Assembly (NCBI GenBank): GCA_003233175.1 | Contig: QIKY01000392.1 | Location: forward strand, 1-38,695 | Length of the DNA stretch: 38,695 nt | Reading direction: 5' to 3' | Source of the DNA: Planctomycetaceae bacterium | Lineage (GTDB): Bacteria > Planctomycetota > Planctomycetia > Pirellulales > Pirellulaceae | Shown: positions 1,381 to 35,845 of the stretch, piece by piece | Layout of the letters: each line of letters begins with the position of its first letter | Position numbering within the stretch: the first letter of the stretch is position 1 | Notes under the pieces: generated by a model | Told to the model about the DNA's origin: nothing | The model's input: only the letters and a program-made list of their open reading frames with translations | Database searches by the model: none | Made by a program: the position numbers and the translations under genes

Positions 1381-1388
1381 CGCCCATA

Positions 1389-1418
1389 TTGGAGTGTGCG
1401 TTTGAGCGTATTTTCGTC
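1389..1418. repeat. Half-copy of the TTGGAGTG hairpin family
   Basis: About 25 of 31 aligned positions match the left arm of the 35210-35276 hairpin, starting TTGGAGTGTGCG. No matching right arm follows, so this looks like a decayed single-arm copy. Confidence 0.4.
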
Positions 1419-3319: not shown

Positions 3320-3739
3320 GATACGGCGTTCGTTGCGATATTGGCCGTTTCACATTTACCGAATACAAGCACGAAGCGCAAGCGAGTGAATCAGCAAACG
3401 GTCATTCCCACGCAGGCGGGAACCCCAAAAACTCACTGACTCCCGCTACGTGCGGGTACGTTATTTTCCGCCGCTCGCCTAATAGTCGCCTTTCGCTTCC
3501 GCGAAAGAACGCTACTTTCGCAGCGAAAGGCGACGCTCCTTGTTCGAGCGGTCCTGGGCGACAACTATTCCTCCGCTATTCCTCCGCATCAGCGACAAAA
3601 ACCACTGATCAGTTATGTAAAAACACGCCGAAGCGTACGCTCCAACATGCGCCGGCGGCGTGGCGAGCTATTTGTGTAAAAGTGGTATGATGCCTGTGAG
3701 TTGGCACAAAACAACACCTTCCATGAGACGAGGCATGCA
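3320..3739. other. Gene-free spacer with stacked palindromic repeats
   Basis: No gene was seen. The spacer contains a CCCGC-TACGT-GCGGG hairpin (3442-3456), the 12-base string GCCGCTCGCCTA (3470-3481, also at 16550-16561), repeat copy B (3485-3549), and a right-arm remnant of the TTGGAGTG family (3630-3646). Several repeat families have accumulated in one spacer. Confidence 0.6.
3485..3549 (+). repeat. Nested palindromic repeat, copy B
   Basis: The outer arms GTCGCCTTTCGC (3485-3496) and GCGAAAGGCGAC (3523-3534) are perfect complements. Inside lies a second pair, GCGAAAG (3501-3507) and CTTTCGC (3515-3521). The tail GCTCCTTGTTCGAGC matches copies A (1593-1620) and C (23370-23431). Folded, it would give a hairpin within a hairpin. 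Confidence 0.65.
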
Positions 3740-12674: not shown

Positions 12675-12760
12675 AAATCACTTGAAAGGGAAAGCGTTTG
12701 CGGTTTGAGAACAATGGCGGGAATGCTCAGGGTGCGATTCATTATAACACGGGCTCGCGC

Positions 12761-12866
12761 CGTTGGAGTTCATGCTTCAGCATGTTTTCGTTATAGAGCC
12801 CTACGAAAACATGCTGAAGCATGAACTCCAACGGTGGACGAAGCATGCTGAAGCATGAACTCCAAC
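12761..12866. repeat. 31-bp perfect hairpin plus extra right-arm copy (TTGGAGTT family)
   Basis: The left arm 12761-12791 and right arm 12803-12833 are exact complements of 31 bases with an 11-base loop. The left arm begins CGTTGGAGTTCATGC. A third piece (12841-12866) repeats the right-arm tail, GCATGCTGAAGCATGAACT, and ends two bases before the bioD stop. The hairpin lies between bioD and the DUF1549 operon, both on the minus strand, so it could terminate bioD transcription. It is related to 35210-35276. Confidence 0.75.
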
Positions 12867-12867
12867 C

Positions 12868-13554
12868 CTACAGCGACTTCCAGTCGATGTCGGTCGGCAG
12901 TTCATTGTCGCCGTGGCGCACATGCGCCAAAAGCGGGGGCGTGCAGCGCATGGCCAGTTGTTCGGCGTTGCTCGAAACGCTGGCGTCGGAGTTCGGGGGC
13001 CGGCAATCGTTGAGCACCACGCCCGCTATATCGAGGCCTTCGCGAAACGTGACCGCCGTGATCAGCGTTTGCAAGGTTTGATTGATAACGCCCAGTTCGT
13101 TGGCCGCCACGACAATCAGCGGATAACCGAAATCGTCGGCCAAATCGGCCACGTATTCATCGTCGCTCATCGGCGACATCAACCCACCGGCGCCTTCCAC
13201 CAACACGATATCGCAATGGCCGGTCCAGGCGGTAAGCCCATTGCGCAGCAGAGCGGGGTCGATTTCGACACCTTCAGCGCGGGCGGCCAAATGCGGCGCA
13301 AGCGGCGCCGCGAACGTTTGTGGACAAACCTCCGCCAACGACAACGGCCGCCCCGCCGCCTCCCAGAGTTGAACGGCGTCGTCGGAGAGCAACACGCCTT
13401 CGTGCAAATCGCAACCGCTGGCGGCCGGCTTGTAGACTCCCACGCTCAAACCATTGGCCCGCAGCCGACGAGCCAACAACGCGGTTACGTAGGTCTTGCC
13501 GACCTCTGTATTCACACCCGTGATGAACAGTCCGCGTGGTGGGTATGGGTCCAT
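12868..13554 (-). CDS. bioD: ATP-dependent dethiobiotin synthetase
   Basis: BioD closes the ureido ring of dethiobiotin from 7,8-diaminopelargonate, CO2 and ATP, in the cytosol, as the penultimate step of biotin synthesis. The protein has 228 residues, normal for the family. The modified P-loop GVNTEVGKT is at 13-21 (usually G-T-D-T-x-V-G-K-T; here Asn replaces Asp15). YKPAASG with the substrate-binding Lys follows, then VEGAGGLMSPM, and VVAANELGVINQTL for the nucleotide-base region. The start ATG at 13554 directly precedes the P-loop. No other bio gene is in the window, so it is an orphan. It is transcribed away from the hydrolase gene, with 132 bases between the two starts. Confidence 0.9.
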   Translation of the reverse strand: MDPYPPRGLFITGVNTEVGKTYVTALLARRLRANGLSVGVYKPAASGCDLHEGVLLSDDAVQLWEAAGRPLSLAEVCPQTFAAPLAPHLAARAEGVEIDPALLRNGLTAWTGHCDIVLVEGAGGLMSPMSDDEYVADLADDFGYPLIVVAANELGVINQTLQTLITAVTFREGLDIAGVVLNDCRPPNSDASVSSNAEQLAMRCTPPLLAHVRHGDNELPTDIDWKSL

Positions 13555-20139: not shown

Positions 20140-20991
20140 GTGAATGCATCGCCCTCATCGCCGCCCAACACTGCGCGTGTTGGTCCTTATACTTGCGGCC
20201 CTGGCAATCCGCTCTTGGTGATTGCCGGCCCTTGCGTGCTGGAAGACGAAGCATCGGCCTTGCAAATCGCGTTCGCGCTGCAACAGACCTGCCGTGAATT
20301 GCCCGTGCAACTCGTATTCAAGGCTTCGTTCGACAAGGCGAATCGGACCAGCATCGATTCGTATCGGGGGCCGGGCCTGGAGAAAGGCTTGGCGATTCTT
20401 GCGCGGGTATCGCGGGAAACCGGGTTGCCTGTCACGACCGATATCCATGAGCCTTACCAGGCCGCGCCGGCGGGAGAGGTTTGCTCGCTGCTCCAAATAC
20501 CGGCCTTCCTGGCCCGCCAAACCGACCTCCTGGTGGCGGCGGCGAAAACCGGTTGCGCGGTGAACGTCAAAAAAGGGCAGTTCCTCGCCCCAGCCGACAT
20601 GCAATATGTTTTGAACAAACTCCGCGCCGCCGGTTGCCGCAACGCGCTGCTCTGCGAACGCGGCACTTTTTTTGGCTACGGCCGCTTGGTGAACGACATG
20701 CGCGCCCTGCCGGCCATGCGCGCCCTCGGCGCACCGGTGGTGTTCGACGCCACGCACAGCGTTCAAGAGCCCGGCGGCCAAGGTGGTTCGACCGGAGGGA
20801 ATCGCGCCATGGCGGAGCCCTTGGCGCGGGCCGCCGCCGCGATCGGCATTGACGGCCTGTTCGTGGAAACACATCCTGATCCTGATTCGTCGCCCAGCGA
20901 TGGTCCTAATATGGTTCCGCTCGACGCCATCGGCGGATTTTTGCAACGAGTCGTGAGTATTCGCGAACTCGTGGAGAGCTTTAACTCATGA
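20140..20991 (+). CDS. kdsA: 3-deoxy-8-phosphooctulonate synthase (KDO8P synthase)
   Basis: KdsA condenses phosphoenolpyruvate and arabinose-5-phosphate to Kdo-8-phosphate, the first committed step toward the Kdo of lipopolysaccharide. The protein has 283 residues, normal length. Signature stretches are [60 protein letters not shown] and [16 protein letters not shown]. Cys32 in GPCVLE, with the His of DATHSV, the Glu of ETHP and a late Asp, matches the metal-dependent class of the family (Aquifex type) rather than the Asn-containing E. coli type. The start is a GTG at 20140; an earlier TTG at 20098 would overlap the kinase. The next gene overlaps by 4 bases (ATGA), implying translational coupling. 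It is the middle gene of a three-gene operon. Confidence 0.95.
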
Positions 20992-22883
20992 GCGACGTTT
21001 CCGTATTTTCGAACCGCAACGCCCCGCCGCGCCCAACCTTTGGGGCGTTCGCCGCCGTTTTTTGGGGCGGCGTCCGCAGTGTTGCGCTGCTGTGTTTTTT
21101 GCTGACGCCAGCCGGTTGTGGGACATCCGCTCCGCCGATAAGCGGCCAACAGCAGAACGCTTTTAATGCGGCCAATAGCCTCGACACCGCCTTGGAAACC
21201 TTAAACAGGATCGATCAATTATCGATGGTGCGGGCCAGGCAGGAGGTTTTGTACCATCTCAACTCCTGGCTGGGCGCCCAGCCAGCCGAAGCGGCGAATT
21301 CCGCGGCTGGGCCTCGTTGGCGGGCCGACAAGCTCATCGCACGTCTCCCCCGGGCGATTCGAGAAGCGCCCAACTTGAAAGATTTGGACACACTTCGTTT
21401 TTTCCCCGAAGACGTCATCTATTTCCAGCAGGTGGTCTGGACGCGTGATATTTCGCAATGGGTGGCCGAGCGCGCCGACCGGCCCGAATTCTTGGACGCG
21501 GCGTCTGCTTCGAGCGGCGATCTTAACGCCGAACAAACCTATCAGTTGGCAATGGCCGCCGCGATTTTCGACTGGACGGTTCGCAATGTACGCTTGGAGG
21601 AAATGCCGCCCGAACCTGACGCGGAGAAAGCGGGGCCTTCCGCAACCGGGAGCGCCGCGCCGGCCGCCGCCCCGCCTTCTCTGCAAGCCCCGCCTTCTCT
21701 GCAAGCCCCGCCTTCTCTGCAAGGCCCGCCTTCTCTGCAAGGGCTGCCCGGCCCCGGCTACCAAAGGTATGTCTGGCAGACGCTCTTATTCGGCGTGGGC
21801 GACGCATTCGAGCGCGCCCGTGTTTTTATCGCCTTGGCTCGGCAGCAAGAGCTCGATGTCGTGATGCTGGGCGTGGAGCAGCGGTCGGGAAAGGTGCTGC
21901 CCTGGGTTCCCGCCGTGTTGCTCAACCAACAATTGTATCTGTTCGAGTCGGCTCTGGGGCTGCCGATCGCGAGAGCGAATGGAAAAGGAATCGCCACCTT
22001 GGTTGAGGCCGCCACCGACCCCCAAGTGCTCAACGGCCTCGACGTCGACAAATACAAGTACGCGGTGCGGGCCAACGGGATTCAAGACGTGGTGGCCATG
22101 ATCGATGCAGAGCCGGAAAGCCTGGCTAGGCGGTTTTACATTGTCGAACGCGCGCTAACCGGCGACAACCAAATGATTCTGACGGTTTCTCCATCTCGAC
22201 TCGCAAAACGATTGAGCAAGTGCGAACACCTTGACCACGAACGCACCCAAATTTGGCGCCTGCCCTTCGACACCATCATGTATCGAAGCGTGCTTGCGCA
22301 GCGGTTGGCGTTCGACCAACGTGTTCGCCAGCTATTCAGCGAAGAGGCGTTGTTCGCGCCCGCGACTCCCCTGGTGCTGGGGCGTTACGCACATTTTCGT
22401 GGCGATTTTTCTCAAACCGACGACACAACCGGCGCCGCGATGTATTACATGCAGTCGCGAATAGCCGAACGCGTGATCAGCGATCTTGATAAATCGCAAG
22501 ATGCGCGCAACGCTGTCGGCTTGGTGCGGTCGGCCAGCGATACCGACGACACCTGGCGTTTGAGCATTGCCGGCTCCCAGCTCATGATGCGAAAAGTCAA
22601 ACTGCTGGCTAGTCTTTACGCCGGGCTGGTGCAATATGAACAAGACAAATACGATATCGCGATCGATTGGCTGAAGGAGCGCACCATCAAACTCGACCCT
22701 GAAAGCCCGTGGTCGCGGGCCGCCGAATACAATTTGGCGCGCGCCTACGAAGCGTCAGGACGCTACGACGAAGCCCGCCAGATCTACCTCCATTCCACAT
22801 CGCCCCAGCAACATGGCGATCACTTGCGGGCGAGTCGGCTGCCCCAGAATGAAGCTTCGAAACCTGCGGCCGATGAGTCGTAA
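20988..22883 (+). CDS. Large putative lipoprotein, degenerate transglutaminase-like region and TPR tail
   Basis: This is a 631-residue envelope protein whose start overlaps the kdsA stop by 4 bases. A hydrophobic segment (31-43) ends PAGC with Cys44 as a probable lipidation site, though Pro at -3 makes the lipobox imperfect. A region at about 185-310 ([10 protein letters not shown], then [36 protein letters not shown]) resembles planctomycete transglutaminase-like domains. The usual catalytic Cys after RA/RC is not seen, so it is probably non-catalytic (inference). Four APPSLQ-type repeats lie at residues 228-251. The C-terminal 100 residues have TPR-like helices ([28 protein letters not shown]). 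Operon placement suggests an LPS- or envelope-related role. The exact function is unknown. Confidence 0.8.
21669..21740 (+). repeat. 4 x 18-bp tandem repeat within the lipoprotein gene
   Basis: Four consecutive 18-base units encode [18 protein letters not shown] and GPPSLQ. The first three are identical in DNA; the fourth differs in one base. The unit is a multiple of three, so the frame is kept whatever the copy number. Confidence 0.9.
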
Positions 22884-34900: not shown

Positions 34901-35078
34901 GACACTCGGTTGCTCGGCGATGCCACGCGTATTCGACAGCTTCGCGCAGCCCGATAATGGACACGCACCCGGCCGCGTCCCCAAAAAAGCGGGCGGGCCG
35001 CAGTGGAACTTGGTACCTGTCCAAGATCGATTCCGTGCAATGGTGTTCTGGAATTCCCGCCAAGCCGGAGGCTTGCCA

Positions 35079-35362
35079 GCCATTAGCCGGTGGTCGAGCG
35101 CAGCGAACACCACCGGTAGGCTGCCGCAACGAACGATGCATCTCGGCGGGATGCCAGACGCGGCGGGCGCGAGAAACGCCTCGAAACAACGCCGTCATTT
35201 GCGCCGCCCACCGTTGGAGTGTACGCTTTAGCGTGCTTTCGTCTCGGACGCACGCTAAAGCGTACACTCCAACGGTGAGCGGCTGGCATCCTTTCAGGAT
35301 GCGGAATGTCGCGGCCTCGATACTCCGGTGGTGTTCGCTGCGCTCGACCACCGGCTAATGGC
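35079..35362. repeat. Perfect 38-bp inverted repeat enclosing another hairpin
   Basis: The left arm 35079-35116 and right arm 35325-35362 are exact complements of 38 bases (left arm starts GCCATTAGCCGGTGGTCGAG). The 208-base interior contains the 27-bp hairpin 35210-35276. The ends are not flanked by an obvious target duplication, and no transposase is present. Confidence 0.85.
35210..35276. repeat. 27-bp perfect hairpin of the TTGGAGTG family
   Basis: The left arm 35210-35236 and right arm 35250-35276 are exact complements with a 13-base loop. The left arm begins ACCGTTGGAGTGTACGC. Twenty-four of 30 positions match the 12761 hairpin's left arm, and every difference is compensated in the right arm. 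Confidence 0.8.
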
Positions 35363-35845
35363 TTTTATCCTTCCAGGATATGGAATCAAATATTTGCCGG
35401 CATCTGAAAAATACGGAATAGTTTTTGGACAGGAACTAAATCGTGGCCGACGCCTCTAAAGAAATAGGGCCGCATGGGAAGATGTGAGGTGAACTTATCC
35501 GGGTGCTGGTGCCGTTTGCGGTGGGACGGTTGTCGGCTGCCGCAAGACTTATGCTGCTTGGCGGCCGGTAACACCGCCCCCCAAAGTGGTTGTTCTTGAC
35601 GGTCTGGCGCGGAAAAACCGAACCTTCGGTGGCGAAAGGCGTGGGGCGGGTAGGATATCGCGTGGCAATTCAAGACGTCGTAATTACAATGCAAGAAGAC
35701 GCATCGCTCATTTTTTTCGTGAATTTCGCCGCATGTCTCCCTAGAATTCACGTTGAGCGCGGGTCTGCTTCTCCTCTCAAATGGAATGCTCGCTCTTAAC
35801 CAGACCGTGAAACGTCCTGCTGTTTTCTGACGAGGCGAAATCTGC

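Follow-up and report, generated by a model that had tools for sequence, protein, structure and literature searches.

Perfectly paired hairpins in a Planctomycetaceae genome as probable REP doublets of a GGAG-tagged family

Introduction

The REPINs of Pseudomonas fluorescens are inverted REP doublets that form hairpins and are associated with REP-associated tyrosine transposases (RAYTs); the doublet is mobile and better conserved than the singlets, and compensatory changes have been noted in it (Bertels and Rainey, 2011; PMC3116915). In the parts of Di Nocera et al. (2013; PMC3733652) drawn upon here, the GTAG-tagged REPs are described as having short stems and TY loops, as forming subfamilies with alternative complementary stem residues and as occurring in head-to-head homo- and heterodimers and with flanking RAYT genes. 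The same parts place GTAG-tagged REPs in O. terrae and in Planctomycetes, including R. baltica with its many tyrosine transposase genes and their repeats, and describe CGTC-tagged REPs as high-copy head-to-head dimers in genomes without a flanked transposase.

Here we analyze the window, a stretch of 38,695 nucleotides of a Planctomycetaceae bacterium (contig QIKY01000392.1), together with the genome to which it belongs (G000) and a sister genome (G001) with 93-96% identity to the window. The window contains two hairpins that are very probably REP doublets (REPINs/BIMEs) of one GGAG-tagged family, arranged head to head, inserted as units and most likely moved by a RAYT.

Hairpins and REP units in the window

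A search of the window for inverted repeats recovered, at 32 and 27 bp, both perfectly paired hairpins of an earlier, sequence-only reading, along with its six compensated differences. Hairpin 1 has 32-nt arms that are 100% complementary and spaced by 11 nt, while hairpin 2 has a perfect 27-bp core within 39-nt arms (35203-35241/35245-35283; 92%), and an alignment of the two left arms over 32 positions shows six differences, each of them compensated (Table 1). Each hairpin arm is one REP unit of ~23 nt, GTTGGAGT-NNANGC-TTNA-GCNTG, which from 5' to 3' consists of a (CC)GTTGGAGT tail bearing the tag GGAG and a mini-hairpin whose stem of 5-6 bp closes a TTNA loop. The half-copies of the sequence-only reading are real; they are lone, degenerate REP units, which support its suggestion that the family also decays.

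Two observations go beyond that reading: the absence of the 421-bp composite from the sister genome, and a third unit beside hairpin 1. A single base pair separates REP unit 3 from the stop codon of a minus-strand gene (12868-13554) that encodes an AAA_26 domain and that we take to be dethiobiotin-synthetase-like. The unit is common to the orthologous site of G000 and G001, and the DNA beside it differs.

Table 1. Features of the repeat family in the window, and sites occupied in the window's genome (G000) but empty or nearly empty in the sister genome (G001).
Feature	Position	Strand	Remark
REP unit 1, hairpin 1 left arm	12762..12784	+	subfamily TTCATGC..GCATG; paired arm reaches 12760-12791
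Hairpin 1 loop, between paired arms	12792..12802		11 nt
REP unit 2, hairpin 1 right arm	12810..12832	-	paired arm 12803-12834
REP unit 3	12844..12866	-	subfamily as units 1 and 2; almost identical; direct repeat of unit 2
REP unit, hairpin 2 left arm	35213..35235	+	subfamily GTACGC..GCGTG; perfect arm 35210-35236
REP unit, hairpin 2 right arm	35251..35273	-	perfect arm 35250-35276
Composite repeat with hairpin 2	35011..35431		421 bp; missing at the orthologous site of G001; GGAACT flanks at 35005-35010 and 35432-35437
Lone degenerate REP unit ATTGGAGTGTGCGTTTGAGCGTA	about 1388..1410	+	
Lone degenerate REP unit GTTGGAGCGTACGCTTCGGCGTG	about 3624..3646	-	
Site	C103:3124		76 bp in G000, -3 in G001
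Site	C347:1735		111 in G000, -9 in G001
Site	C5:37535		96 in G000, 3 in G001
Site	C5:42193		147 in G000, -4 in G001
Site	C76:13271		108 in G000, 12 in G001
Hairpin 2 site			421 in G000, -6 in G001

Other repeats in the window include a further 25-bp inverted repeat, GTACGATGGCCTTCCAAGGCTGTCG (18465-18489/18514-18538; 96%), which is located within larger 20-bp arms (18438/18558) and looks like a repeat family separate from the GGAG REPs. An 18-bp tandem repeat, GCCCCGCCTTCTCTGCAA, is present in four copies (21669-21740) within a long ORF (20988-22883), and an inverted repeat of 45 nt (29516-29560/29709-29753; 82%) has a spacing of 148 nt.

Copy number and comparison with described REP families

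Across the 440 contigs (5.99 Mb) of the whole genome, the degenerate unit pattern GTTGGAGTNNANGCTTNAGCNTG matches exactly at 344 sites and its reversed form at none, a copy number far above chance. Dimer and subfamily statistics were obtained from 1.21 Mb of the genome, a sample biased to contigs with copies, in which 226 units have at most three mismatches and fall mainly into the stem subfamilies TTCATGC..GCATG (77), GTACGC..GCGTG (54), TTCACGC..GCGTG (37) and TTCAGCC..GGCTG (23). Neighboring units in this sample form 79 head-to-head pairs, which are hairpin-capable inverted doublets as in REPINs, and 20 head-to-tail but no tail-to-tail pairs. Paired units have on average 0.57 mismatches to the consensus, compared with 0.98 for lone units.

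GTAG-type REPs are high-copy imperfect palindromes of 20-40 nt with a stem of 5-9 bp and a loop of 2-4 nt, and the unit described here, with its 23 nt, 5-6 bp stem, TTNA loop and 344 copies, lies within these bounds. As in P. fluorescens REPINs, the inverted doublets form hairpins, are mobile, are closer to the consensus than singlets, show compensatory changes and are associated with a RAYT; unlike in those REPINs, the units have a GGAG tag and TTNA loops, many doublets are heterodimers and the partner RAYT is found in relatives rather than in the same genome. The family shares with the CGTC-tagged REPs the high-copy head-to-head dimers without a flanked transposase in their own genome, but its tag is different and a transposase partner exists in relatives. 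The GGAG-tagged REP/REPIN family is new, although compensatory changes and homo- and heterodimers have already been described for REPs; GGAG lies outside the degenerate tags named in the text of PMC3733652, and the family, being set apart by that text description, could match a listed R. baltica family.

Covariation within units and between arms

To measure covariation, 203 copies were gathered by the tail CCGTTGGAG alone. At stem pair 12-21, 89% of them have a Watson-Crick pair compared with the 36% that column composition predicts, and all of CG, TA, GC and AT are in use; at pair 13-20, the corresponding figures are 90% and 66%, with GC and CG in use. At both pairs, the subfamilies differ by complementary stem residues, as those of the GTAG-type REPs do. 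The copies are related by transposition, so that these counts are not independent events; despite this kinship, the four pair types at 12-21 imply at least three separate double changes.

The 79 head-to-head dimers separate pairing within a unit from pairing between arms. Pair 12-21 is Watson-Crick in 147 of the 158 arms, where 60 would be expected, while the two arms agree at column 12 in 41 of the 79 dimers (29.5 expected) and at column 21 in 38 (30.2 expected). Both arms have sound stems but do not match each other in 40 dimers, 32 match in both senses and seven have a broken stem. What is constrained is the 5-6 bp stem-loop of the individual arm rather than the 27-32 bp arm-to-arm duplex. 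Consequently, the selection on hairpin structure put forward in the sequence-only reading holds for the stem within each arm but not for the long duplex. The compensation seen between the two hairpins of the window reflects a comparison of two homodimers, each from its own stem subfamily. Perfect pairing with compensated differences can therefore arise without selection on a long hairpin when both arms derive from a mobile unit with a small covarying stem.

That selection acts on the long arm-to-arm hairpin itself, as a structure in RNA or DNA such as a 3'-end stabilizer, a bidirectional terminator or a cruciform, and that compensatory mutation keeps it is very improbable. Hairpin 1 does lie just downstream of a stop codon, its predicted RNA fold is strong (-70.3 kcal/mol, z -11.4), TTTT follows each unit, the units score as terminator-like and homodimers exceed those in shuffles. 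However, 49 of the 79 dimers are heterodimers, with arms from different stem subfamilies and no arm-to-arm compensation; the sister species lacks dimers at orthologous sites; and an Rfam search matched no family. Uncompensated mutations, against which the sequence-only reading had set the maintenance of structure, also occur: two copies common to G000 and G001 (C36:10853 and C36:13698) carry uncompensated stem or loop changes. At single sites, the long hairpin may possibly serve as a terminator or mRNA stabilizer.

Homodimers account for 30 of the 79 dimers versus 16.4 in shuffles. This excess is in line with the suggestion of the sequence-only reading that one arm is repeatedly re-copied, but is explained at least as well by amplification of whole dimers. 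Of all the explanations weighed here, the one we hold least probable is that inverted duplication or hairpin-templated repair repeatedly overwrites one arm in place with the sequence of its partner, without transposition: heterodimers predominate, the most frequent combination (17 dimers) joins two different subfamilies, and both arms come and go together at the empty sites described below.

Insertion of whole dimers

Fifteen clusters have matching flanks in G001, and six of them are occupied in G000 but empty or nearly empty in G001 (Table 1). The cluster C1:35369 was dropped from the empty sites, as the flanks that seemed orthologous are repeats with 87-88% identity. Since dimers are present or absent at otherwise continuous sites, with both arms appearing or vanishing together, the dimers insert; gain versus loss at any single site is a matter of interpretation. 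Together with the greater degeneracy of single units, this presence and absence indicates that the whole dimer behaves as a mobile unit, as in REPINs.

In some cases, dimers moved as part of a larger composite repeat. The composite carrying hairpin 2 has TGTCCAA terminal inverted ends and internal inverted 39-mers (35078-35116/35325-35363), and has many partial or full relatives in G000 and G001, some of which contain no REP dimer. A very improbable explanation is that the dimers are ordinary MITEs of DDE transposons, with the REP arms as the terminal inverted repeats of a cut-and-paste element. The GGAACT duplicates around the composite would suit such an element, as would a GGTGCGG...CCGCACC block with an AGTAA duplicate in which the C347 dimer sits. 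Composite copies without the dimer, however, imply that the REP dimer is a separate insertion nested in the composite; the stand-alone dimers show no constant duplication, their junction offsets being -3, 3, -4 and 12 in the few cases available; and the REP design goes with RAYT genes.

A partner RAYT subfamily in related genomes

The five Y1 genes in the window's genome are flanked by other repeats (GGTGGCCCAGGTTCTTGAACCTGGG, ATTCACTCGCTTGCGCTTCGGGCTGGTAT, GTGCCACTGGCTTTGCCAGTG and GGGGTCAGGACTC) and were rejected as partners. The Y1 loci found by Pfam in 60 relatives did not include a partner subfamily with GTTGGAG REPs, which surfaced only at a relaxed E-value. One relative (G068) has a RAYT-like gene that contains a single in-frame TGA and lies between GTTGGAG REPs, and an N-terminally truncated homologue of this gene in another relative (G212) has GTTGGAGTTCAGGCTTTAGCCTG units directly on both sides; the flanking units at both genes are GTTGGAGTTCA. 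Of 397 genomes of the order that were searched, 19 contain this HUH/Y1 transposase subfamily.

Each of the 21 subfamily loci tested has two or more hairpins of the form tag(GGAG/GGTG/GTAG)-T-stem-TTNA-stem within 700 bp, compared with none of 48 other Y1 loci (0.00 in shuffled flanks). This relaxed pattern was written after the loci had been seen, so that 21/21 is descriptive, with the controls guarding against looseness. A stricter test of the flanking hairpins gave 12/21 subfamily loci, 1/48 other Y1 loci and 0.10 in shuffled flanks. While the tag of the family described here is GGAG, the REPs beside the partner subfamily in relatives carry GGAG, GGTG or GTAG. The subfamily, with tags and stems that vary by genome, offers a natural series for how RAYTs recognize REPs.

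In the partner proteins, the HYH and NY motifs are invariant, with NY downstream. Their best match is the RAYT family NF047646 (REP_Tyr_transpos), with which they share both motifs but from which they diverge, several scoring just under the cut-off of 80 bits: three of the four intact members tested score 67-72 bits and the G068 gene 77. The latter is also under the Pfam Y1_Tnp cut-off.

Mobilization of this REP family by a RAYT is predicted from these associations. A RAYT of the partner subfamily would recognize the tail and the mini-hairpin, probably in single-stranded DNA, and may copy or move the whole dimer. Its recognition would preserve the stem of each unit, while whole-dimer amplification would make both arms alike; the inserted copies would then decay neutrally. 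Several points count against the REPIN/RAYT explanation: the tag, which is GGAG and not GTAG; the flanking RAYT gene, which accompanies GTAG-type REPs but was found here in relatives only; the other repeats around the five Y1 genes of the window's genome; and the movement of some dimers within larger composites. No member of the partner subfamily was detected at E <= 1e-20 in G000 or G001, both of which are incomplete and fragmented assemblies; given this incompleteness, and since assemblies tend to break at genes flanked by REPs, the result is no proof of absence.

A more tentative idea, to which we give well below even chances, is that these are orphan REPINs: hundreds of dimers in two sister species, some inserted after the divergence, with a matching RAYT in neither assembly, that would be mobilized in trans by some other transposase or would outlive a recently lost RAYT, with one RAYT subfamily using tags beyond GTAG (GGAG and GGTG).

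Two other genes near REPs were set aside. In a Verrucomicrobiales contig, a Y1 gene next to a REP (L196) carries terminal repeats of its own and was dismissed as a chance neighbor; in the sister genome, the decayed C-terminus of a RAYT close to a REP (L399) appears to belong to a different RAYT type.

Four Y1/RAYT-like genes of the window's genome, L033, L034, L035 and L032 (G000:C140, C91, C65 and C130, respectively), each have a different repeat family around them. At L032, the GGGGTCAGGACTC ends agree with GGGGWSAS, the motif published for TIRYT elements. At L033 (about 1312-1345), a RAYT with GGTGGCCCAGG repeats begins directly beside a GTTGGGGTGTACGCTT unit that is truncated, as though the RAYT had inserted into that REP. 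In another genome (L396; G338:C423), a RAYT relative precedes a tandem array in which the alternating REPs, of CTTTGGAGTGCGG type, recur about every 125 bp.

Distribution

The GGAG-tagged REP family is widespread in Planctomycetota and, by pattern, also occurs in Verrucomicrobiota and Lentisphaerae, and its design is tied to the one RAYT subfamily. Among the matches listed, the unit pattern is found in contigs named Planctomycetota (Stieleria tagensis, Pirellulaceae and Fimbriiglobus), Verrucomicrobiota and Lentisphaerae. Within the order, the pattern is patchy, occurring in 9 of 397 genomes, and this patchiness among relatives fits the gain and loss of a mobile family.
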